From contig NZ_WTYV01000002.1 in assembly GCF_009827655.1 (NCBI RefSeq), positions 558,657 through 622,656 of the forward strand: DNA of 64,000 bases, read 5' to 3'. This DNA comes from Alteraurantiacibacter buctensis. GTDB taxonomy: Bacteria > Pseudomonadota > Alphaproteobacteria > Sphingomonadales > Sphingomonadaceae. The notes under the pieces were generated by a model, which was not told where the DNA came from, searched no databases, and was given only the letters and a program-made list of their open reading frames with translations. The stretch's first letter is position 1; each line of letters opens with the position of its first letter. The position numbers and the translations under genes were made by a program. Of the stretch, positions 210-15,882 are shown in pieces.

Positions 210-1334
210 CTAGGGCTGCGCCAGCCAGGTTCCGCTGCTCTCGTATTCCTTGCGCACCTGGCCCGATTGCGGGAACAGCTGGGTCTGCGGTGCCGCGCTG
301 GTGGCGGGAACCGGAGCGGGGGGCGTAAGGGCCGCACCGTCGCCGCTTCCGCCCGCAGTGCCGGCCACGATCACCGGCAGTGGCACGGCGGGCACGCCCA
401 GTTCGCCCGCCAGCGGCATGACCGCGCCCGAGGTGCTCCGCACCGGCAGCGGCTCCACCCCGGCATAGGCGGCGGTGAAGGCGCTGGCCCGTCCCGCCAT
501 GCCGCCGAAGCGGTAGAAGCGGTGCGCGCCGATGGTGCCCACCGGAGTCAGGCTGGGGGCCCAGTAGGGATAGATCGCGGTGGTGTGATAGTGCGTGGCC
601 AGTCCCACTGGCGCGAACACGAAGCCGCCCAGCGCGGCGCTGGCCACGCGGCGCGCCTTGTTCCACGCCGCCACGGACGGGCGGCGGGCCAGCGACCCAT
701 CGCAAGTGAAGCTGAACTGGCAGCCGGTGCTGCGCTGCGATCCCTGGAAGACCACGCCGCACACCGTGTTGGGATAGCTGGGGTGGCGCACGCGGTTCAT
801 CACCACCTGGGCCACGGCCTGCTGGCCTTCCAGGCTTTCGCTGGCGGCCTCGTAATAGATGGCCATGGTCAGGCATTCCTCGGCCCGCAGCTTGTCGGTG
901 AAGCTGCCGCCCATGGAGAAGGCGCGGGCAGCGGGGCCGCGTTGCGGCAGGGCGGGGGTGGTCAGCGAAGCCTCGTCCACCGCAGGGGTAAGGGCAGCGG
1001 CTTCCTCGCCGCTGGCCAGGGCCACGGCCGGCGCACCATCGGCGGGGCGCCAGGCGGCGAACTCGGGATCGAGCGGCTGGATCGCGGGTGCGGCGGTTGC
1101 AATGGTGGCGGGCTTTTCCGCAACATCGCCCACGCCGGGGGCGGCCATGGCGGGCACGGCCACGGCCAGCGCCAGCACGCCGATCCGGCGGCGCAGCAGG
1201 CGGCGGCTGGCCGGCCGGGTCAGGCCGTGGCTGCGGGCGCGCCGCGTCACCCGGGCGGAAAAGTCCCCCGGTTGCAGCTCGTCCATGTCATGCCAGTAGG
1301 CCAGCGTTCGATTCCCGCGTGCGACACCGGGCAA
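210..1334 (-). CDS. Cell wall hydrolase, SleB-like (Hydrolase_2 family)
   Basis: A 374-residue protein with one N-terminal hydrophobic segment (about residues 51-66, IGVLALAVAVPAMAAP) preceded by a cluster of arginines, so it is probably anchored in or exported across the inner membrane. The catalytic part (about 145-290) carries the family hallmark AIYYEAASESLEGQQAVAQV followed by VMNRVRHPSYP and HYHTTAIYP. Members related to spore-cortex enzyme SleB cleave peptidoglycan glycan strands; in alphaproteobacteria they are general cell-wall remodelling enzymes. The C-terminal 80 residues are low-complexity Pro/Ala/Gly. A second in-frame ATG (M17, 1286) is an equally possible start and would lose no domain. 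Function as a wall hydrolase is from the family; the substrate bond is inference. Confidence 0.85.
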   Translation of the reverse strand: MPGVARGNRTLAYWHDMDELQPGDFSARVTRRARSHGLTRPASRRLLRRRIGVLALAVAVPAMAAPGVGDVAEKPATIATAAPAIQPLDPEFAAWRPADGAPAVALASGEEAAALTPAVDEASLTTPALPQRGPAARAFSMGGSFTDKLRAEECLTMAIYYEAASESLEGQQAVAQVVMNRVRHPSYPNTVCGVVFQGSQRSTGCQFSFTCDGSLARRPSVAAWNKARRVASAALGGFVFAPVGLATHYHTTAIYPYWAPSLTPVGTIGAHRFYRFGGMAGRASAFTAAYAGVEPLPVRSTSGAVMPLAGELGVPAVPLPVIVAGTAGGSGDGAALTPPAPVPATSAAPQTQLFPQSGQVRKEYESSGTWLAQP

Positions 1335-1395
1335 TTCCGATGCGCCACAGGCGCCTAGCGCGAATTCCTTACCGATTCCGCACCAGCTAACGCCA

Positions 1396-1443
1396 CGTCC
1401 CGTAACGGGACGGTGCGGGCCGGGGGGTTAACGCCCCGGCCCG
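1396..1443 (-). terminator. Double hairpin between M3 peptidase and cell-wall hydrolase genes
   Basis: Two perfect hairpins lie just after the M3 peptidase stop codon: a 10-bp stem at 1416-1443 (CGGGCCGGGG with its complement, 8-base loop) and a 7-bp stem at 1396-1412 (CGTCCCG, loop TAA). No T-run follows on the minus strand, so it is not a classical intrinsic terminator. It may instead stabilise the 3' end or aid termination. Confidence 0.45.
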
Positions 1444-1450
1444 TCCGCAA

Positions 1451-3607
1451 TCAGTCCATCAGGCCGCGCGCGCGCAGCATCGGCTCCGCCCGCGGATCGT
1501 GGCCGGTGAAGTCACGATACATCTGCTCGTAGCTCTTCGAATGGCCCTGGCCCAGGAAGGTGGCGCGGATCCGGTCACCCATGGCCCGCGTCATGCCGCC
1601 GTTTGCCTCCACATAGGTGTAGGCATCGTGGTGAAGCATCTCGGTCCACTGGTAGGCATGGTAGCCCGACGAATAGCCGTTGGAGACGATGTGCCGGAAG
1701 TAGGGCGTACGATAGCGCGGCGGCACCAGCGCGGTGTTGAGGCCGGTGCGCGCCAGCGAGGCGTTCTCGAAAGCCACCACGTCAGCGGGGATCTGGCCCG
1801 GTTGCAGGCGGTGCCAGTCAAGGTCCACCAGCGAGGCCGAGATCAGCTCGCCAAAGGCATAGCCCTGATCGAACTTGCTGGCGCGCTCGATCGCCTCGAT
1901 CAGCTCGGCGGGGATCGTCTCGCCGGTCTGGTAGTGCTTGGCATAGTTGTTCAGCACGGCCGGGATGGTGGCGAAGTTCTCGTGAAACTGGCTGGGGAAT
2001 TCCACCCAGTCGCGCGCGGTGTTGGTGCCGCTGATGCTGGGATACTGCTGGCTGGCGAATAGGCCGTGCAGGGCATGGCCGAATTCGTGGAACATCGTGG
2101 TCACGTCGTCGAAGCTGGCCAGCGCCGGCTCGCCCGGGGCGGGCGGGGCGATGTTGAGCGTGTTCGACACCACCGGCTTGTTGCCCAGCAGGTAGCTCTG
2201 CTCCACGAAGTTGTTCATCCACGCGCCGCCGTTCTTGTTGCCGCGGGCGAAGGGATCGAAATAGAACAGGCCCATCTCGGTCCCGTCCTTGTCGATCACG
2301 GTATAGACGGTCATGTCCGGGTGATAGACGGGGATGTCGGTCCGCTTGCGGAAGGTCATCCCGTAAAGCTGCTCGGCCATGTAGAACACGCCGTTTTCAA
2401 GCACGTTGGTCACCTCGAAATACTGCCGGATGCGGCTTTCATCAAGGTTGTAGCGTTCGGCCCGCACCTTCTCGGCATAGAAGGCCCAGTCCCACGGCTG
2501 CACGGTGAAGTTGTGGCCGTCTGCCCGGATGCGCTCGTTCAGCACCTCGGCCTCGCGTGCCTGGGTGGCGGCGATGGCGGGCACCATGTCGCGCAGGAAC
2601 TGCTCGGCGCGGGCCGGGGTGGCGGCCATGCGGTCGTACATCTGCCAGGTGGCATAGTCCGGCGCGCCCATCAGTTGCGCCTTGCGGGCGCGCAGTTCCA
2701 TCACCTCGCGCACGATGCCGGTGGTGTCATACTCGCCGCCCGACGAGGTGCGGTTGATGCTGGCTTCGTAGAGGCGGCGGCGCGTCTCGCGGTTTTCCAG
2801 CGCGGCCAGCAGCGGCTGCTGGGTGGTGTTGATAAGCGCGAGCATGAACTTGCCGGGATGGCCGCGTTCGGTGGCAAGGCGGGCGGCGGCCTCGATCTGG
2901 CCTTCGGTAAGGCCCGCCAGTTCGGCGCGGGTCTCGACCAGCACGGCGGCGGCGGCGGTGCCCTGGGTCAGCTTCTGGCCGAACTCGCTCTCCAGGCTGG
3001 AGAGGCGGGTGTTGATCTGGCGCAGATCCGCCTTGGCATCGGCATCCAGCAGCGCGCCGCGATGGACGAACTCCTGATAATAGATGTCCAGCAGCATCGC
3101 GTCCTCGGCGGTCATGCTCATGGCGGCGCGGTTGTCGTACACCGCCTTCACCCGGGCGAAGAGCGCATCGTTGAGGTAGATCGCATCGTTCATGGCCGCC
3201 AGTTGCGGGGCCACGGCGCTGTCGATCGCGTCCAGCGTGTCGTTGGTGTTGGCGCCCTGCACCTGGTAGAAGGCGGCGGCGGCGCGGTTCAGCATCTGGC
3301 CGGTGCGCTCCATCGCCACGATGGTGTTCTGGAACGTGGGCGCTTCCGGATTGCGGGCGATGTGCTCGATCTCGGCCAGCTTGATGGCGATGCCCTGCTC
3401 GATCGCCGGCTGGTAGTCGCTGTCCTGGATGCGGCTGAAATCGGGCGCGCCGAAGGGCAGGGTGCTGGGAGCTGCGAAAATGCCGGTGCCCACGGGGATC
3501 GGGGGCAGGGCCTGCGCGGTGGCGGGAGCGGCGGCGCTGTCAGACATGGTGGTGCAGGCGCTGAGCAGGGCGGCGGCGGCAACCCCGGCGAGAAGGCGAA
3601 CGGACAT
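1451..3607 (-). CDS. M3 family zinc metallopeptidase (peptidyl-dipeptidase Dcp-like), lipoprotein
   Basis: A protein of 718 residues from the ATG at 3607, chosen because AGGAG lies five bases upstream and it opens with a lipoprotein signal (MSVRLLAGVAAAALLSAC, lipobox LSAC). The longer in-frame ATG at 3631 would bury this signal. The M3 active site FHEFGHALHGLF is present about two thirds along (HEXXH zinc ligands plus catalytic Glu), in a protein otherwise alpha-helical, as in thimet/Dcp peptidases. Such enzymes trim short peptides and, when lipid-anchored and exported, act in the periplasm. The length fits Dcp (about 680 residues plus signal). The exact cleavage preference (dipeptidyl carboxypeptidase or oligopeptidase) cannot be told from sequence alone. 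Confidence 0.93.
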   Translation of the reverse strand: MSVRLLAGVAAAALLSACTTMSDSAAAPATAQALPPIPVGTGIFAAPSTLPFGAPDFSRIQDSDYQPAIEQGIAIKLAEIEHIARNPEAPTFQNTIVAMERTGQMLNRAAAAFYQVQGANTNDTLDAIDSAVAPQLAAMNDAIYLNDALFARVKAVYDNRAAMSMTAEDAMLLDIYYQEFVHRGALLDADAKADLRQINTRLSSLESEFGQKLTQGTAAAAVLVETRAELAGLTEGQIEAAARLATERGHPGKFMLALINTTQQPLLAALENRETRRRLYEASINRTSSGGEYDTTGIVREVMELRARKAQLMGAPDYATWQMYDRMAATPARAEQFLRDMVPAIAATQAREAEVLNERIRADGHNFTVQPWDWAFYAEKVRAERYNLDESRIRQYFEVTNVLENGVFYMAEQLYGMTFRKRTDIPVYHPDMTVYTVIDKDGTEMGLFYFDPFARGNKNGGAWMNNFVEQSYLLGNKPVVSNTLNIAPPAPGEPALASFDDVTTMFHEFGHALHGLFASQQYPSISGTNTARDWVEFPSQFHENFATIPAVLNNYAKHYQTGETIPAELIEAIERASKFDQGYAFGELISASLVDLDWHRLQPGQIPADVVAFENASLARTGLNTALVPPRYRTPYFRHIVSNGYSSGYHAYQWTEMLHHDAYTYVEANGGMTRAMGDRIRATFLGQGHSKSYEQMYRDFTGHDPRAEPMLRARGLMD

Positions 3608-3723
3608 GGATTCTCCTGACAAGGCAGGCAAGCAGGCGCGACCCCGCGCGCCCGGTTACCATTGAAACGGAACTGCTCTCTAGTGAAACCATCATGGCAG
3701 GGCAATGAACAAAGCGGACGACC

Positions 3724-4257
3724 TCAGCCCACGGGAAATTGTTCGACCGGCGTATAATGCGATCCGACCGGCGACAAGGTGCTGGCGAACAGCGTGAAGC
3801 TGTCCACCGTGCAGGGCGGGGCGGCCAGAAGGGCATGGGCCGCCAGCCATTGGGGCACGCCGGGCACCTGGCCGCCGAGGCGGGCGAGGGTGACGTGCGG
3901 CAGGAAGCGCCGCGCTTCGGGCGGGAAGCCGGCCATGGCGCAGGCCTGGGCCACGCGCGCCTGCAGCGCATGCAACGGCTCGCTGGGGGCGACACCGGCC
4001 CACAGCGCCTTGGCGCGGCCCTTGTGTTCGAAGTGGCCCACGCCGGACAGGGTCAGGGTGAATGGCGTAACCGGCACACGGGACAGGGCCAGCACCAGAT
4101 CGTCCACCGCAGGCTGCGGCACGTCGCCCAGGAAGGTCAGCGTCAGGTGCAATTGTTCGGCATCCTGCCAGCGGGCATCGGCCAGGCCCTCCATCGTATC
4201 GAGCAGCAGGTCGCTGACCGGTTCCGGCAGGGTCAGGGCGGTGAACAGGCGGGGCAT
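3724..4257 (-). CDS. thpR: RNA 2',3'-cyclic phosphodiesterase (2H superfamily)
   Basis: A 177-residue 2H phosphoesterase. The two signature motifs are visible: HLTLTFLG (about residues 37-44) and HVTLARLG (about 121-128), the paired HxTx catalytic histidines. Length and motif spacing match ThpR/LigT. The family opens RNA 2',3'-cyclic phosphates to 2'-phosphates, and some members ligate tRNA halves in vitro. A GTG immediately precedes the ATG at 4257; either could serve as start. The gene follows the acyltransferase gene on the same strand after about 50 bases, so the two may be co-transcribed, though no functional link is evident. Confidence 0.92.
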   Translation of the reverse strand: MPRLFTALTLPEPVSDLLLDTMEGLADARWQDAEQLHLTLTFLGDVPQPAVDDLVLALSRVPVTPFTLTLSGVGHFEHKGRAKALWAGVAPSEPLHALQARVAQACAMAGFPPEARRFLPHVTLARLGGQVPGVPQWLAAHALLAAPPCTVDSFTLFASTLSPVGSHYTPVEQFPVG

Positions 4258-4311
4258 CACAAAACCTGTGCCACGTTTGCCGCCCCGTTGCGATGGCCTT
4301 GCGAACGCCCG

Positions 4312-6045
4312 TCAGGTGGCCCCGTAGGTTCGCAGGATCCGGCCATAGCGCAGCGCGGTCGCCTCGTTGAAGTGGACCCCGTCCGATGTATGGTCGGCCA
4401 GCACCGGTTGCGGGATCAGGCGACCCACGCCGTGGGCGGTAAGCTGGCGGATGCCCCGGTTGAGCGCGGCGATGGTGGCGGCATCGAAATCCGGCCCGGT
4501 GGGCATCTTTGCCTGCTCGGCGGGCCACACTTCGGACACCCATACCCGCTCCGGTCCGCAAGCGGCCACCATCCGGCGCAGGTTGGCCAGCGAGGCCGCG
4601 GGGCGGCGCATGTCCGGCTTGGCATCGTTGGTGCCCAGCGCAATCACGATCTCGGCATCGGACAGCAGGCACAGCGTGCGCGCCATGCGCGTCATGTCGC
4701 CGATGGTGGCGCCGGGATAGCCGGCAAACAGCACCCCCTGGCCCGATGGAATGCCGGTCAGCCGGCTGTCACCGATCACGATGCGGCTGGCCAGCGGGGC
4801 CTGCGCCAGGGTGCCCACGGTGCGTGGTGATACGGTCGGCTCCAAGGGGGTGGGGGCCACCAGCCAGCCGGCAAAGACATAGACCCCCAGCACGCCGATG
4901 CCGCCCCAGCGCAAGAGCCGGCGCAGCGGGCTTGCGACAGGTTGCGGCTGGCGGGAGGCGGAACGGGCGGCCCAGCGGTCCGCCAGCCAGCGGCGCACCT
5001 GCGGCCGGCGATGCTCGGTCAGCTTCGCCACCTGCCCCGCCAGCGCCACGATCAGTGCCAGCCCGGCGGCAAACAGCAGCAGGTTGTCGCCCGCGCTTAG
5101 GCCATAGCCGCGAGCTAAGGTCAGCAGGGGCCAATGAATCAGATAGAGCGTAAATGAACATTCCGCGAGCCACGAAATCTGCGGGTGAAATCTCTCCAGC
5201 AAGGCTGCGCGGGACTGTACCAGCGGCTTCATGCCCAGGAAGCACAGTGCTACACCCAGCCCGAACACGAAATCCGAAGCAGCAAGCTGGGCGAAGCCCA
5301 ATTCTGCAGGAGTCGTGTTCAGAGCACTGAACATCAACATGTTCAGCGTCGTTTCGAACTTCACGGACAGCAGGATTGTTGCCAGGCCAGACAAGATCGC
5401 AATAAAGCCTGTATCGGCCGGAAGGGTCTTCCCGGGGCCGAAGCGGGCCAGCGCTACACCCAGCAGCCAGATGGGGAGCAGCAACAGCACTGTGATGCCG
5501 GCGACCGCTGCGGCAAAAGCCAGCACTGCCATTCGTCGCCACCCCCGCAGGTAGAAGGCCGCGCCAAACAGGACATAGAACCAGACTTCCACGGCCAGAG
5601 ACCAGTAGGGGGGGTTCCATAGCGGACCCACCCCAAAGGACGTTTCGCTCAGGAAAAATGCCGGAAGCACCACTGCTGCCACGCTGGGTGTCGTGTAGGC
5701 ACGGCTCTGCTCGATAACGTCGATCTGGCCAATCTGCCCGATCGCCCAAGCCACCAGGCCAAGGCCGATCGCTACCGGAACCAGGGGGGCCACGCGGGCG
5801 AAGCGCGCAATCGCATAATGTGGCAGGCTGGACGGGCGGCACCAGGCAGAATTCGCAATGACCAGGCCAGAAAGGACGAAGAATACGATTACCGCATTGT
5901 GCTGAAGACTTGTGTCGAACCCGAAGGGTCCAGTGTAAAGTTCCTGCTGCACGGCATGGCCGACGAGCACCACCAGTGCTGCTCCGCCCCGGATTCCATC
6001 TAGCGCGATGGACATGGGGCGATCTAGGAATCTTTCGCGGACCAT
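4312..6045 (-). CDS. Acyltransferase 3 membrane protein with C-terminal SGNH hydrolase-like domain (OafA/OafB type)
   Basis: About 577 residues from the ATG at 6045 (a TTG six codons upstream is possible). The N-terminal ~350 residues form an acyltransferase-3 module: LDGIRGGAALVVLVGHA at the start (RG..A..V..GH), about ten membrane segments, and WSLAVEVWFY. After a cytoplasmic, Arg-rich stretch (RRPQVRRWLADRW) and one more membrane helix comes an exported SGNH/GDSL-like domain with block I VIGDSRLT, GTNDA, and a C-terminal SDGVHFN that supplies the Asp/His pair. Two-domain enzymes of this layout O-acetylate surface polysaccharides or lipopolysaccharide. No glycan-biosynthesis genes lie nearby, so the acceptor is unknown. 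Confidence 0.87.
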   Translation of the reverse strand: MVRERFLDRPMSIALDGIRGGAALVVLVGHAVQQELYTGPFGFDTSLQHNAVIVFFVLSGLVIANSAWCRPSSLPHYAIARFARVAPLVPVAIGLGLVAWAIGQIGQIDVIEQSRAYTTPSVAAVVLPAFFLSETSFGVGPLWNPPYWSLAVEVWFYVLFGAAFYLRGWRRMAVLAFAAAVAGITVLLLLPIWLLGVALARFGPGKTLPADTGFIAILSGLATILLSVKFETTLNMLMFSALNTTPAELGFAQLAASDFVFGLGVALCFLGMKPLVQSRAALLERFHPQISWLAECSFTLYLIHWPLLTLARGYGLSAGDNLLLFAAGLALIVALAGQVAKLTEHRRPQVRRWLADRWAARSASRQPQPVASPLRRLLRWGGIGVLGVYVFAGWLVAPTPLEPTVSPRTVGTLAQAPLASRIVIGDSRLTGIPSGQGVLFAGYPGATIGDMTRMARTLCLLSDAEIVIALGTNDAKPDMRRPAASLANLRRMVAACGPERVWVSEVWPAEQAKMPTGPDFDAATIAALNRGIRQLTAHGVGRLIPQPVLADHTSDGVHFNEATALRYGRILRTYGAT

Positions 6046-6250: not shown

Positions 6251-9155
<2,905 letters not shown>

Positions 9156-9157
<2 letters not shown>

Positions 9158-9302
9158 TCTGGGGCCGGGAGTCGAAGACGTGGCGCAGCCACAACGCGGC
9201 GTGCGGGGCGGGGAGATCATTGCTTCGGGTACCCCTGAGCAGGTGGTGAAGGAGGAGCGGTCTTATACGGGGCGGTATCTGGGGCCGTTGTTGGGGCGTT
9301 GA
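9156..9302 (+). pseudogene. Second, detached copy of the uvrA 3' end
   Basis: Reading from 9156, one base inside the uvrA stop codon and in the +1 frame, gives DLGP, a 9-residue unrelated stretch (VEDVAQPQR), then [31 protein letters not shown] and a stop at 9300-9302. The true uvrA end (residues 926-964) reads DLGP...[13 protein letters not shown]...ERSYTG...LAPLL. From the shared VRGG onward 27 of 33 residues agree although many codons differ. Removing 9026-9155 (130 bases) would join codon 925 to this copy in frame, giving an intact 973-residue UvrA. It therefore looks like the displaced original end, or a partial duplication. It has no start of its own. Confidence 0.8.
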
Positions 9303-9332
9303 CGGAGAAAGATGACCGGTTGCTGCGCCACG

Positions 9333-11858
9333 CTATCTCTCAAACTTTTCTACATCGTACGCTTCAGTCCGGCCATCTGGTTTATTTCGGACACTAAACT
9401 CGACGGCTCCTCCCTGAAGTAGCCAACCCCACACATCCGGCGTAACATTTTGTCTGGCAATGAAGAACTCTCTGCCATCTCGAACTTCCAAGAATCCAAA
9501 ATTCTCCTGTCTTCCCCTGAGTTTCAAACCACCGAAGAAGCGGCCATCCTCGAAACTATGCGGATTCTCGTGATAAATTTCGTTGTTAATCCATTCTTGA
9601 AGACGACGCGCGTTGACGGCGTCGATCCGACGATCCGAAATTAAAGCCTTCAAACAGGGGAGAACCTTAAGAACATGGTCGACGATGGTATCGTCAAATG
9701 CACGGGTTCCCTCGCTCTCCAAATAGCTCACAAAGTTACCACACTCATCTTCAGCTAAAGACAAAGCCTCATTTCCAACAAAAAAATCGATCTTTCTCTG
9801 ATAAAACTGAACCCAAAGATCTATAATCAGGGCCGTCTCTTTGAAGGTTGGACCACTTAGTGCATCTGCCCTCGTCAAATAACTCTTTGCAATGTCAAAT
9901 CTGCACTCACGCATCTCGGCTCTTGCGGCTTCACGAAGGACTGGTGCTGCATCTGGGTCGAGCGTCAGAGCTTCTGCAAATTGCAACGCGGCATCTGCTG
10001 CATAACCTGCTCGGAGAAGCATGCCGCCGAGAAAGAAGTGTAATTGCGGTTGCTTCGGCCCATATTCCAAAGCAGCTTCATAGGCCTCAATAGAGCGAGG
10101 CAAGTCGGACCAGACGTAGGCAGCATAGCCCTCAAATCTATAGACTTCAAAATATCCAGGTGCTGAAATTTTGAGTTCTTCGATCCCCTTCTCAACTTCC
10201 TCCGTTAAGCCACGCTGTAAAGATCGATGAAGATCGCGCAGTTTTGCTTCTGCGACAGCCTCGCCTTTCGTCCGAACGACATAATTTCGGATTTCATATC
10301 GATTAAAATCTTGATTAGCTCTTCGAATCTCAAAACGGCTTTGAATTTTTTGGAAACGGCGCTGATAGATTTCCATTTCATCCTTGGCGGGATTCGATAT
10401 TCTAACGATATACGACCGCACAGACGGACGAAGTCTAAAGGTTCGTTCTGAGTTGGGAAGATCAGAAAATTCAACAAGCGCGAACCGTGAGAGTTCCAAT
10501 AGTCCCGATTCGACCTCTACCGCGCTTAAACCAGAAATCTCTTCAACTACAGAAGCAGCGATGGACTCAGATACTGAGACTAGGCATTGCGCAACCTTGA
10601 TGGCCTGACCTTGTAATCGATCAAGGACATTTTCGAGGCAGAATCTGAGTGCATCTTTTGGGTCACTGACGATTCTTTCTGGTGACGCGCCACTTTTGAC
10701 AGCTAGTGCAAGCCATTTTATCAACAGCGGTTTAAAGCCAAGCCTGCGGCAATACTTCGTAAGCTCAGCGTCCGTCTTGTCATTTAAAGTCTTTATAGAA
10801 TCAGATTTAGAAAGTATTCGTAGATATTTTAGACTCTCAGACTCTGAAAATTGCGGAACAGAAATCGGTAAATCGCCACTAATAGGAACGCGAGAAGTAA
10901 GCAATACCTTGCTATCACCTGGCACGTCTTGAACTAAACGCTCAATGTAGGGTCCTGTTATAGTTTCAAGATTATCAATTACAAGAAGAACCTTGTTTTC
11001 TTCTAGCAATAATAAAAGACTCTCAAACGAATCTTTGCCCTCCCGCCCAAACGATGATGCATCTTCAATGATGCGCAACGAATCTGTATAGGATGATGAT
11101 ATATCCTTTATACCGCGTTCAGTGAGTGTAGCGGTCTTTGCAGAATACCATAATATTAAGTCGAAGTTGTGGTCATCTGAATCAATAAGATTCCACAGCG
11201 TATGCAATGTTAGTGCCGTTTTTCCATTACCTCCGTCCCCCAAAACGGTAATAACTGGGTAGCGACCGAGAATTTTCTTTTTTAATTCCGACTCAAGTTC
11301 TGGGCGTCGAAGAAACCCTGTGTCCTCGTAGTCAGGTATCGGTAGGTTATTCAATGCTCCAAAATCGGGTGGATTCTCAAGTACAGATATTGATCGGTTC
11401 GCTAGTCGCTCTGGATCTTTACTATACTCGGCATAGGTCCGCGCCAAATTTGGCCAGAAATTTGGCTTATTCAGCAGGTCTGATGCAAACGCAAAACCGA
11501 TAACGTATTCATCGACTGTGAGTGGTCGGCCGTGCATTACGGAATTGCGAACGCCTATAATTCGCCCCAATTTGCCAGATATATTTTTGATATAATTTAT
11601 AAACGATTCGGAAAAATACTCCTTATGTCGAAGTGTTATAGAAAATTTTTGACCTAAATCGAGTGCATGAACAAGATCAAAAGTGCTCTCCGCATCGAAG
11701 GTTTTTGCGCTGTTTTGTGACAAAATGAGACGAGATTTTGTTGTCTCGTCTTCTGTAAGCACTAAACTATCGTCTGGAATGCTCCTAATATAAGACGAGA
11801 GATCAGTTTCTAGTGCGTCAAACAGGATGAACAGCGCTATTCTTTGGATGCTTGCCAT
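9333..11858 (-). CDS. HEPN-like / STAND NTPase / TPR / cold-shock-like multidomain protein (candidate defence protein)
   Basis: An 841-residue protein; the start at 11858 is supported by AGAGGAG ten bases upstream. Regions in order: residues 1-135 alpha-helical with RNSVMH (R104, H109), the Rx4H motif of HEPN RNases; 170-480 a STAND/NB-ARC-like NTPase with Walker A GDGGNGKT (207-214), Walker B VLLVIDN (290-296), sensor VLLTSR (318-323) and a following winged-helix-like segment; about 565-665 TPR-like helical repeats; 780-840 a segment resembling a cold-shock domain, with ENFGFL in the place of RNP1 and REFFIA in the place of RNP2, ending in a beta-like GRTEAYDV. No signal or membrane segment. 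The gene is visibly AT-rich with rare codons (TTA, ATA, AGA) in a GC-rich chromosome, so it is probably acquired. The architecture suggests a switch that senses a ligand and activates an RNase. Domain calls are from motifs by eye; HEPN and cold-shock are the less certain ones. Confidence 0.8.
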   Translation of the reverse strand: MASIQRIALFILFDALETDLSSYIRSIPDDSLVLTEDETTKSRLILSQNSAKTFDAESTFDLVHALDLGQKFSITLRHKEYFSESFINYIKNISGKLGRIIGVRNSVMHGRPLTVDEYVIGFAFASDLLNKPNFWPNLARTYAEYSKDPERLANRSISVLENPPDFGALNNLPIPDYEDTGFLRRPELESELKKKILGRYPVITVLGDGGNGKTALTLHTLWNLIDSDDHNFDLILWYSAKTATLTERGIKDISSSYTDSLRIIEDASSFGREGKDSFESLLLLLEENKVLLVIDNLETITGPYIERLVQDVPGDSKVLLTSRVPISGDLPISVPQFSESESLKYLRILSKSDSIKTLNDKTDAELTKYCRRLGFKPLLIKWLALAVKSGASPERIVSDPKDALRFCLENVLDRLQGQAIKVAQCLVSVSESIAASVVEEISGLSAVEVESGLLELSRFALVEFSDLPNSERTFRLRPSVRSYIVRISNPAKDEMEIYQRRFQKIQSRFEIRRANQDFNRYEIRNYVVRTKGEAVAEAKLRDLHRSLQRGLTEEVEKGIEELKISAPGYFEVYRFEGYAAYVWSDLPRSIEAYEAALEYGPKQPQLHFFLGGMLLRAGYAADAALQFAEALTLDPDAAPVLREAARAEMRECRFDIAKSYLTRADALSGPTFKETALIIDLWVQFYQRKIDFFVGNEALSLAEDECGNFVSYLESEGTRAFDDTIVDHVLKVLPCLKALISDRRIDAVNARRLQEWINNEIYHENPHSFEDGRFFGGLKLRGRQENFGFLEVRDGREFFIARQNVTPDVWGWLLQGGAVEFSVRNKPDGRTEAYDVEKFER

Positions 11859-11986
11859 CTGCTTAAGGTCTCCTCTGCTTTCGGATATATTCGTTTCCGT
11901 CTACATTTCCACGATTTTTCTTTCCTACACACCCCAATCCATGCCTCAGTCCTCCCGGTAAACCCTGACCGGAAAGGACCAGTCCC

Positions 11987-12238
11987 ATGTCCCCCTATCC
12001 CTCGCGCCGCCCGGCGGCGGTGCCTGCCATCGACCGTCCGAGCAATCCTGCGGCGGAGGCGGCGTTTGTCGCTTCGTGGCTCGCGCATGTCGAAGCGGGC
12101 CGTATCGGTAACCGGACTCCCATGCCCCCCGAAGAACTCGCCGTGCAGCGCGCCAACGAGATGGCCGTGCTGGGGCGCACGCCCAGTTTCCTCGATCTGC
12201 CCGCGCCGCAGCCGCCGCGCCGCCGGTGGGGGCGCTGA
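11987..12238 (+). CDS. Small conserved-looking protein of unknown function
   Basis: An 83-residue protein (begins MSPYPSRRPAAVP) with AAAGGA about 8 bases before the ATG. The middle (residues 20-65) looks like an amphipathic helix pair with many Ala/Glu; the ends are Pro/Arg rich. No motif, signal or membrane segment seen. It ends two bases before the start of the HTH protein gene, so the two are almost certainly one operon. GC content and codon use return to the chromosomal norm here, marking the right edge of the AT-rich stretch. Function unknown. Confidence 0.6.
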   Translation: MSPYPSRRPAAVPAIDRPSNPAAEAAFVASWLAHVEAGRIGNRTPMPPEELAVQRANEMAVLGRTPSFLDLPAPQPPRRRWGR

Positions 12239-12240
12239 GC

Positions 12241-13356
12241 ATGGACCGCAACTGGCGCGACAGTCTCCCCGGCATCGAGCGGGTGGATTACGAGAGCGAA
12301 TACGGCCTCCTGGCCGACGATGCCGTGGCCGGGTGCCTGCTGGAGGCGGCGGAGTATTTCGGGCCGGGGCTGGACGAGGGGGAGGGGGGCGTTGCGCCTG
12401 CATTCGAGGGTGGTGGCGCCGCGCCCACCCCCGGCCCCTCCCGTTCACGGGAGGGGGGATCGTCGCGCGAAGTTGTCCCCCTCCCGCCTGCGGGAGGGGT
12501 TAGGGGTGGGGGCGGTGCCGCCGACTTCTCGCCGCAAACCCGCCCCCCAGCTCGCCCCGGCCCCGAACCCCTGCTCACCCGCCCTCTGCAGGCGGTGTTC
12601 TGCGAGCACCTGGCGCGGCATGGCAACGTGCGGCTCGCCTGCCGGGCGGCGCGGGTTTCCGCCCAGACGGCCTATCGCATGCGCCGCGCCTGCGGGCAGT
12701 TCCGCGCGCTATGGGATGCCGCGCTGGTGATCGCGCGGGACCAGGTGGAGGACGTGCTGGCCGATCGCGCGGTGCACGGCTGGGAAGAAGCGGTGTTCTA
12801 TCACGGCGAGGAGGTGGCGCGGCGGCGGCGCTATGACAGCCGCCTGCTGCTGGCCCACCTGGCGCGGCTGGACCGGCTGGCCGAGCGCGCCGCCGGGGGC
12901 GTGGTGGAGCGGTTTGACGCGGCGCTGGAAGCCCTCTCGGCCGACGAGGCGCTGGTGCTGGACCCGGCCGAGGCGGCGGTGGCGAGCGTCTCCGGCGTGG
13001 TGACTGGCGATGGCGAGACCCTTGCGCAGGCGGAGACGCCAGCCGCCGGGGATGGCGCGCCAGAACCCGGCGTGCCGCTGCTGGAAGCGCAGCTCTGCTG
13101 GCTGGAGGAGCACCACGGCGACCTGACCGAGGAGGAGGAGATTTTCCATCTCCTGCACACTGTTCCAGGTGTTCCAGGTTCGGCCCTGCGGCTGTTCGGC
13201 TGGACCGGCAGCGAGGCCGAACTGGCCGCCGACCGGGCGCGCTGGCAGGCACGGCGGGCAGCGTGGGAGGCGCAGCAGGGTGGGGGAGAGCCGGAAGCGC
13301 CTTCCGCCAAGGGCGCGGAAGGGGACGCGATCAGCCCTGGACCAGCTCGATGCTGA
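12241..13356 (+). CDS. HTH protein resembling phage terminase small subunit N-terminal domains; unknown function
   Basis: 371 residues from the ATG at 12241, two bases after the preceding stop. Residues about 120-150 form a helix-turn-helix (FCEHLARHGNVRLACRAARV, then SAQTAYRMRR), the DNA-binding type seen at the start of terminase small subunits and in related non-phage proteins; it is followed by WDAALVIARDQVEDVLADRA and an Arg-rich segment. The C-terminal third is acidic and Ala rich. Residues about 58-95 (Pro/Gly/Ser/Arg-rich) are encoded by an inserted palindromic repeat and are probably not native. The last 26 bases overlap the convergent RlpA-type gene. No terminase large subunit or other phage gene is nearby, so a phage role is not supported. 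Confidence 0.65.
   Translation: MDRNWRDSLPGIERVDYESEYGLLADDAVAGCLLEAAEYFGPGLDEGEGGVAPAFEGGGAAPTPGPSRSREGGSSREVVPLPPAGGVRGGGGAADFSPQTRPPARPGPEPLLTRPLQAVFCEHLARHGNVRLACRAARVSAQTAYRMRRACGQFRALWDAALVIARDQVEDVLADRAVHGWEEAVFYHGEEVARRRRYDSRLLLAHLARLDRLAERAAGGVVERFDAALEALSADEALVLDPAEAAVASVSGVVTGDGETLAQAETPAAGDGAPEPGVPLLEAQLCWLEEHHGDLTEEEEIFHLLHTVPGVPGSALRLFGWTGSEAELAADRARWQARRAAWEAQQGGGEPEAPSAKGAEGDAISPGPARC
12412..12522. repeat. Palindromic double-hairpin repeat inserted in frame in a coding sequence
   Basis: Two 32-base arms (12412-12443 and 12491-12522) are inverted copies matching at 26 of 32 positions. Inside them two separate hairpins form: CCCCTCCCG with its complement at 12435-12456 (loop TTCA) and at 12478-12499 (loop CCTG). 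The layout is that of REP-like palindromes normally found between genes in GC-rich bacteria. Here it lies within the HTH gene, keeps the frame open and adds a Gly/Pro/Ser/Arg-rich loop, much as Rickettsia palindromic elements do. Confidence 0.7.
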
Positions 13357-13870
13357 CAGGGGCGTGGCCGGTGCGGACCATGCCGATCTGCTGGGCCGCG
13401 GCGTGCGAGATGTCGAGCACCCGTCCGCGCGCATAGGGCCCGCGGTCGTTCACCCGCACGATCACGCTGAGGCCGGTGCGCTGGTTGGTGACGCGCAGGC
13501 GCGTGCCGAAGGGCAGAGTGCGGTGCGCGGCGGTCAGGTCGGTAGGGTCGAACGCCTCGCCGCTGGCGGTGCGGTTGCCGGCCAGCTCGCGCCCGTAGTA
13601 GCTGGCCATGCCGGTATCGAGCATGGTGGCGACCTGCGCGGAGAGGGGGGCCTCGGCGGGGATGGGGGCGGGGGCAACCTCGGTGACGTCGACCGCGTGG
13701 CCTTGGGCAAACGGCTCGGTCTGGGCGGGGCCAAGGTCGGCGAAGGCGGCGGCCACGGTGCTGGCGGCGGGCTGCTCCGCACGGCCCGCGGTGGCCGGCA
13801 GGGCCAGCAGCGCCAGGGTGGCAAGCGCGACCGCACGGGTGCGGCGGTATGGTGTCGGGAGGCCCGTCAT
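13331..13870 (-). CDS. RlpA-family septal-ring lytic transglycosylase-like protein
   Basis: 179 residues from the ATG at 13870 (an upstream ATG at 13909 adds 13 non-hydrophobic residues). A signal peptide (RRTRAVALATLALLALPATAG) is followed by a linker and a double-psi beta-barrel domain: GMASYYGRELAGNRTASGE, HRTLPFGTRLRVTN, VRVNDRGPYARGRVLDIS. These are the RlpA/expansin-like hallmarks, including the catalytic-site Asp in NDRGP. RlpA proteins cleave naked glycan at division septa or bind peptidoglycan. There is no lipobox and no SPOR domain, so septal targeting is not evident. The 3' end overlaps the convergent HTH gene by 26 bases. Confidence 0.88.
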   Translation of the reverse strand: MTGLPTPYRRTRAVALATLALLALPATAGRAEQPAASTVAAAFADLGPAQTEPFAQGHAVDVTEVAPAPIPAEAPLSAQVATMLDTGMASYYGRELAGNRTASGEAFDPTDLTAAHRTLPFGTRLRVTNQRTGLSVIVRVNDRGPYARGRVLDISHAAAQQIGMVRTGHAPVSIELVQG

Positions 13871-14384
13871 GGCGCGAGGCTCTAGGCCGGAAGGGGTTGC
13901 CAAGGCCATACCGGCAGGCTCCAGCCACCGTGTTGCAGGCGCAACTCACCGCATTGCGGAGCAGAAACGGGGCTTGCGCGGGGGTGGAACGGGTGCGGGA
14001 CGGGGGAGCGGGGGCAGCAACGGAAATGGGGCCGGCATCGCTGCCGACCCCACTCTCACCGACGTGTGGACCGATCCCCGGAGGGACTGGTGCTTGACGC
14101 CCGGCGCATCACCGCAGGCAGGCTGCGGCACGCTTCCCGGCGCTCGCGCCGGTGCCGGATCCGCCGGTTGGCCGGGTATGGTGCAGGCACCTGTCCCTTG
14201 CCGTCCGGCAGGTCCGCGACCGGGGCCTTGCGGTTCCCGCCACCTCGAGCGGCTCCGCCTGTGCCAGGGGGCATCGGCGTTGCCATCGGTGGCTGGACGC
14301 TTGGCGGTCCGGCCGTGTCGCTGGGGTGGTGCCCGATGGGATGCGCTGTGCTTCGTCGGGATCACACCTTGCGGATGCTACCCT

Positions 14385-14661: not shown

Positions 14662-15882
<1,221 letters not shown>

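Follow-up and report, generated by a model that had tools for sequence, protein, structure and literature searches.

Fusions of a HEPN domain to a STAND ATPase were listed in 2013 by Anantharaman et al., and the parts of that survey considered here (PMC3710099) include HEPN-STAND-TPR-S1 fusions as well as HEPN-STAND proteins whose C-terminus is a cold-shock-like OB fold: a Swt1-like N-terminal HEPN domain, predicted to be active, is followed by a STAND ATPase, TPR repeats and an S1 or cold-shock-like OB domain. We analysed a stretch of 64,000 nucleotides from Alteraurantiacibacter buctensis (contig NZ_WTYV01000002.1; hereafter the window) in which a reverse-strand gene at 9333..11858 encodes an 841-residue HEPN-like / NB-ARC (STAND) / TPR / cold-shock-like protein, and so has the domain order HEPN, STAND, TPR, OB fold of those fusions. 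The likeness to the examples named in these parts of PMC3710099 (Npun_F6454, MED222_16016 and Desac_1927) is one of described architecture, and the examples are themselves predictions. A first reading of the window from its letters (the sequence-only reading) had taken the combination of domains to be undescribed; the same parts of PMC3710099 rule out that novelty. The gene belongs to a kind already predicted, and what informs unexpectedly is its place: a variable chromosomal site next to uvrA. This conserved position is new to us relative to what these parts of PMC3710099 describe. The open-access literature yielded neither a report of a hotspot beside uvrA nor an experimental test of the HEPN-STAND-TPR-OB architecture. 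The portion of PMC13092281 considered here contains validated HEPN and P-loop systems, one of which could be of HEPN-STAND-TPR-cold-shock architecture.

Avs (AVAST) and other bacterial NLR-like STAND proteins share with the A. buctensis protein an N-terminal effector, a STAND NTPase and C-terminal repeats, and are probably alike in their working; the differences are the HEPN effector and the cold-shock C-terminus. Membership in Avs itself was rejected, as no PADLOC Avs model matches the protein at E≤1.

We consider it probable that the gene encodes a single-gene, NLR-like abortive-infection protein with an HEPN RNase as its output. At rest the NB-ARC NTPase would keep the protein off; the TPR repeats, together with the C-terminal cold-shock-like domain, would read a phage-associated trigger, and this would bring about nucleotide exchange and oligomerisation; the oligomer would join the N-terminal HEPN domains as dimers, and the R104/H109 site of these dimers would cut RNA, with the result that the infected cell stops. 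Switching, oligomerisation, RNA cutting and phage as the trigger are what we infer from known STAND and HEPN proteins. Should the protein work in this way, it would join the switch of animal and plant NLRs to an RNA-cutting output within one bacterial polypeptide. Defence, the likeliest function, had also been proposed in the sequence-only reading, to which the present analysis adds evidence from position: a variable site with defence-like cargo, and homologues whose neighbours are rich in PADLOC matches.

Architecture of the 841-residue protein

The open reading frame (ORF) at 9333..11858 begins with ATG, which has AGAGGAG on its 5′ side, and is free of internal stops. The full-length model has a mean pLDDT of 87.0 and a pTM of 0.66, and the top ranks of a full-chain Foldseek search are 6mfv (a STAND protein with a TPR sensor), NRC2, CED-4 and Apaf-1, all with low whole-chain TM-scores. 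Profile matches, models and structural comparison agree with the order of domains given by the sequence-only reading, and the motifs on which it had relied are found at R104 N105 ... H109, GDGGNGKT 207–214, VLLVIDN 290–296, TSR 321–323, ENFGFL 785–790 and REFFIA 796–801; their recurrence among relatives shows that they are not chance occurrences. All domain coordinates below are on the reverse strand.

HEPN is the best assignment for residues 1–154 (11397..11858), the predicted effector, because the motif, residue conservation and a structural ranking by VIA-align point the same way; Foldseek on its own was not significant. The domain is modelled with a pLDDT of 93.6 and a pTM of 0.86, and holds the predicted HEPN Rx4H catalytic motif, RNSVMH, at residues 104–109 (11532..11549), in which the arginine is followed by a polar residue, N105. 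Conservation was assessed among relatives: an alignment of the protein with four plasmid homologues led, by way of NTPase patterns, to 62 related loci in many phyla. An N-terminal RNxxxH is present in all 35 loci whose tblastn match spans residues 60–110, a count that is independent of retrieval because the loci were retrieved by their NTPase. Alignments A2 and A3 took in 38 of the 62 loci, those with complete ORFs and RNxxxH; the other 24 were partial, cut off, or without the motif in the part read. Across the 41 rows of A2 residues E17, K213, D295 and F789 are invariant, as are R104, N105 and H109, although for the last three the invariance is partly selected (38 of the 41 rows were picked as complete ORFs with the motif), and the fair count is the 35 of 35.

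VIA-align, used here as a re-scoring of Foldseek's candidates for the model of residues 1–154, placed RNA-bound AbiF (8vz6) at the top (Z 7.5, 144 residues aligned, 4.9 Å) and Csm6′ second (Z 7.1, 99 residues aligned, 3.1 Å). The entry 1wty, which we take to be a HEPN protein, scored Z 5.5, the HEPN toxin 7ae8 Z 4.6 and Csm6 (6tug) Z 4.5, with clearly unrelated rows at 4.3 and down. For residues 1–135, where a non-HEPN fold would have told against the sequence-only reading, no clear fold of that sort is seen in the model. PDC-M34B, a PADLOC model of a phage-defence candidate, matches 9 of the 41 relatives (best E 5.6e-10), its match, where inspected (L027, L028 and L034; 3 of 10 proteins), covering the N-terminal domain. 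No Pfam HEPN model matches the A. buctensis protein itself at E≤1. What speaks against the HEPN assignment is that the best Foldseek hit of residues 1–154 has an E of 0.67, that VIA-align Z values below 8 may reflect a common helical arrangement, and that Pfam HEPN_Swt1 reaches 3 of the 41 relatives at E≤0.01 (best E 0.0023).

The likeness to AbiF (Abi_2), an HEPN RNase, consists of the top structural row and of RNxxxH; the AbiF motif is RNQCAH, and mutants in it are no longer toxic according to the part of PMC12373285 considered here. AbiF is a separate protein under the control of a non-coding RNA, whereas the control of the A. buctensis protein lies probably with its fused NTPase. Membership in the AbiF system was rejected: the interval 9100–12400 contains no Rfam match at E≤1, the abiF RNA included.

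Residues 171–503 (10350..11348) form an NB-ARC / STAND NTPase module with Walker A at residues 207–214 (11217–11240). The Pfam NB-ARC model matches at 23.6 bits, barely over its gathering score of 23.5, and also matches 37 of the 41 relatives; the Walker A/B, TSR and P-L motifs (G209 G210 G212 K213, D295, T321 R323, P377 L378) are invariant in 41 of 41. By VIA-align this part resembles NRC4 (Z 16.6 over 303 residues) and CED-4 (Z 16.0 over 310 residues). Plant resistosomes (NRC4, ZAR1) and CED-4/Apaf-1 are thus alike in the NB-ARC fold, at Z about 16, and different in their effector and sensor domains, and by sequence the membership is limited to NB-ARC. The TPR-type helical repeats that follow, residues 530–767 (9558..10271), match Pfam TPR_16 at E 5.7e-6, with all TPR models under their gathering scores, and reach Z about 18 to TPR proteins in VIA-align. 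The STAND and TPR parts of the sequence-only reading are borne out by these comparisons.

The C-terminal residues 774–838 (9345..9539) are predicted to be a cold-shock-like domain, and form five strands in the full-length model, compatible with an OB/cold-shock fold. The profile matches are weak: PADLOC CSD_V at E 0.0011, PDB 2mqh at E 3.4e-4 and the NCBIfam retron Se72 effector model at E 0.0031, far under its cut-off. Pfam CSD has no match at E≤1 on the protein itself; among the 41 relatives it is found in 15 (best E 5.6e-14), and CSD_V in 11. Residues 787, 789 and 799, presumably RNP1/RNP2-like positions, are aromatic in 39, 41 and 40 of the 41 relatives. These matches, relatives and strands uphold the cold-shock-like C-terminus of the sequence-only reading. 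The likeness to the Se72 effector and to CSD_V is confined to this domain; with no reverse transcriptase beside the gene and no Rfam match at E≤1, membership in the Type V / Se72 retrons was rejected. The C-termini of L027, L028 and L029 have an apparent tandem pair of cold-shock repeats.

What such a domain would do in an NLR-like protein may be seen in two ways. Tentatively, we regard it as a sensor of nucleic acid, and think it less likely that it mainly binds substrate. It is possible, if doubtful, that the same NLR-like defence protein uses the domain to present RNA substrate to HEPN, or to tether itself to RNA or ribosomes, and leaves the sensing of a phage protein to the TPR repeats alone. 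The conserved aromatics and the apparent second repeat of L027–L029 favour such a substrate binder, as does the fact that STAND proteins usually sense through C-terminal TPR repeats. The C-terminal spot adjoining the repeats, however, fits a sensor too, and the data do not separate sensor from substrate binder.

The interval between uvrA and argG

The gene stands alone between uvrA (6251..9157, forward strand) and a conserved ORF (12226..13356, forward strand), which adjoins rlpA in most loci of the genus and forms the right edge of a variable interval. Beyond it are the right anchors, an RlpA-like gene (13331..13909, reverse strand) and argG (14662..15882, reverse strand). The names uvrA, rlpA and argG were given by eye, without a family search, and genes were called by a simple ORF script, so that some calls are spurious. 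No other noteworthy gene-like ORF lies on the stretch from uvrA to the ORF at 12226, and scans for promoters and terminators gave no signal above shuffles. The G+C content of the gene is 0.44, as against 0.71 in the DNA to its right and mostly 0.61–0.74 in the rest of the window, which supports the view that it is foreign by composition. Both the isolation and the foreign composition had been pointed out in the sequence-only reading, as had a scarred uvrA end: after the uvrA stop at 9157 there is a second, diverged uvrA 3′ end at about 9189–9299 (9189..9299, forward strand), a putative recombination scar.

The closest relative of the protein is that of Erythrobacter litoralis, with 56% identity along its full length; it is encoded in the same place, convergent with uvrA and with the same ORF, RlpA-like gene and argG on its far side. 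Between the two species argG is 92% identical and the RlpA-like protein 42%.

We compared 82 loci beyond uvrA: the window, L016, 31 genomes of the same genus, 40 loci from other genera of the family (taken largely from the top of the ranking by uvrA similarity, and so a non-random set) and nine from other families of the order. The argG anchor is present in 59, namely the window, L016, 29 same-genus loci and 28 from 24 other genera, and in none of the nine from other families. In these 59 the interval from uvrA to rlpA/argG has a median length of 2,678 bases (quartiles 2,340 and 2,982, range 225–4,460), and a few of the intervals are nearly empty. The median G+C content is 0.526 within the interval and 0.650 beyond it, and the interval is the lower of the two in 57 of 59 loci. 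Of 84 interval ORFs of at least 200 residues only 12 have a relative at another locus (E≤1e-10), while 148 of the 174 control ORFs on the right-hand side do; the proteins of the window and L016 make up one of six related cargo pairs. No integrase was noticed in the intervals (window 9158–12225; L016, L080–L110, L141–L173). The interval is a family-wide variable site whose cargo is mostly low in G+C and mutually unrelated.

A Pfam scan covered thirty cargo proteins, picked by length, low G+C content and eye, from 25 of the 31 loci of the genus (all except L081, L082, L086, L090, L091 and L106; the cargo of other genera was left aside), and 21 of the proteins have a family at E≤0.001. GmrSD occurs in L084, L100 and L104, with FRG in L084; AAA_15/AAA_21 ATPases occur in L083, L093, L098 and L101, with RloB in L093 and DUF4435 in L101. 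Further cargo comprises NACHT (L089), a CAP12-type TIR (L099), KAP (L103), MT-A70 (L085), a DNA methylase (L108), HATPase (L092), DUF3037 (L105), a Tle1-like protein with LysM and a SocA-type antitoxin (L109) and, under the cut-off, DndB (L110). Many of these families act in phage defence. The uvrA site may matter more than the gene: if its cargo is largely defensive, the many unannotated genes that it holds in related species are candidate defence systems.

Cargo is on occasion shared. L159 (291–2678) and L169 (262–2655), of one genus, have an 82% identical cargo gene with a less extreme G+C content (0.57–0.58), an example of stable cargo, and L089 (6800–8635) and L141, of another genus, have at the same site NTPases that are 35% identical, that of L089 being NACHT by Pfam.

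Extra uvrA 3′ ends like that of the window are found at E≤1e-4 in 6 of the 82 loci (the window, L089, L147 with two, L157, L166 and L170); weaker ones are seen in L101 and L149, and by blastn or eye in L080 and L094. They may be read as traces of the arrival of cargo together with a piece of the donor's uvrA. Among the loci fetched no donor of the window's second tail could be named, the best match being 75% over 100 bases. A fuller account can be offered as a speculative possibility: the cold-shock domain would directly sense phage or damaged nucleic acid and the NB-ARC switch would free the HEPN RNase, while the uvrA site would be a family-wide, one-slot defence site whose cargo is swapped by recombination, without an integrase, leaving the extra uvrA 3′ ends behind.

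Relatives, their rarity and their neighbours

The family of the protein is sparse. Members occur in 1 of 40 genomes in the genus, in 2 of 385 in the class (where one of the two matches is partial and to the NTPase) and, by the HEPN model, in 2 of 398 in the phylum, the source genome being counted each time. A scan of genome contigs with the 841-residue protein alone found no relative. Plasmids fared better: 12 of 72,556 records match the protein and three of these, from Rhizobium, cover at least 80% of it at 37–38% identity.

At 19 of 20 homologue loci (L050 being left out) neighbouring ORFs were compared with control stretches of the same contigs, 119 of 161 neighbour and 129 of 152 control ORFs entering the comparison, all of at least 480 bases. 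At E≤1e-10 the neighbours match 263 PADLOC families and the controls 18; these figures count redundant models and not proteins, and the 25 neighbour models listed, with two proteins each, stand for methylases and a type I restriction enzyme. The contrast is real, but few proteins underlie it. The homologues of Rhizobium sp. BG4 and, by similarity, that of Hyphomonas (L019) have a type I restriction locus next to them. The R. etli homologue is located among ABC transporters, and those of L026 and L042 among housekeeping-looking genes. Homologues confined to housekeeping loci, away from mobile DNA, would have told against the sequence-only reading; the picture is mixed: some are by restriction-modification genes or on plasmids, others in housekeeping-looking surroundings.

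The latter lend something to the idea that the protein is a transcription-type STAND regulator or a housekeeping protein of RNA metabolism, AT-rich by chance, as do the cold-shock domains of ordinary RNA chaperones. We think this very improbable: the gene is in a single one of the 40 genomes of its genus, no DNA-binding domain was found at the N-terminus, and distant relatives retain the HEPN residues.

Six records of small Acinetobacter baumannii plasmids contain a distant homologue (L013, 4001–6673), which has a RelE-type pair next to it. Such a plasmid, the other plasmid-borne homologues, and the use of HEPN domains in toxin-antitoxin systems (described in the parts of PMC3710099 and PMC12373285 considered here) speak for a switch for plasmid or locus maintenance, or for stress, in which a toxin-like HEPN is restrained within one polypeptide and phage is not the primary target. 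This, too, seems unlikely, since the window interval has no antitoxin-like partner gene, the Rfam search found neither abiF RNA nor any other family at E≤1, and restriction and defence families share the variable site.

Set against the abortive-infection reading, which we continue to prefer, are several further results. None of 50,697 phage records contains a relative, and two scans of viral contigs, limited by short patterns, were likewise empty; a viral origin of the gene is unsupported by these same searches. CSD_V is the only PADLOC model to match the protein at E≤1, the others being silent. The redundancy of the neighbour counts and the housekeeping-looking loci belong here also, as do the 9 of 30 scanned cargo proteins without a Pfam match and the cargo of L102, an HTH with an M78 peptidase, which is not clearly defensive.

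Two minor observations concern the anchors. The core of the conserved ORF (12226–13356) has by eye a repeated HTH-like pattern, and the source genome contains a second UvrA-like match, 51% identical, at G000:C17:43036-43830.

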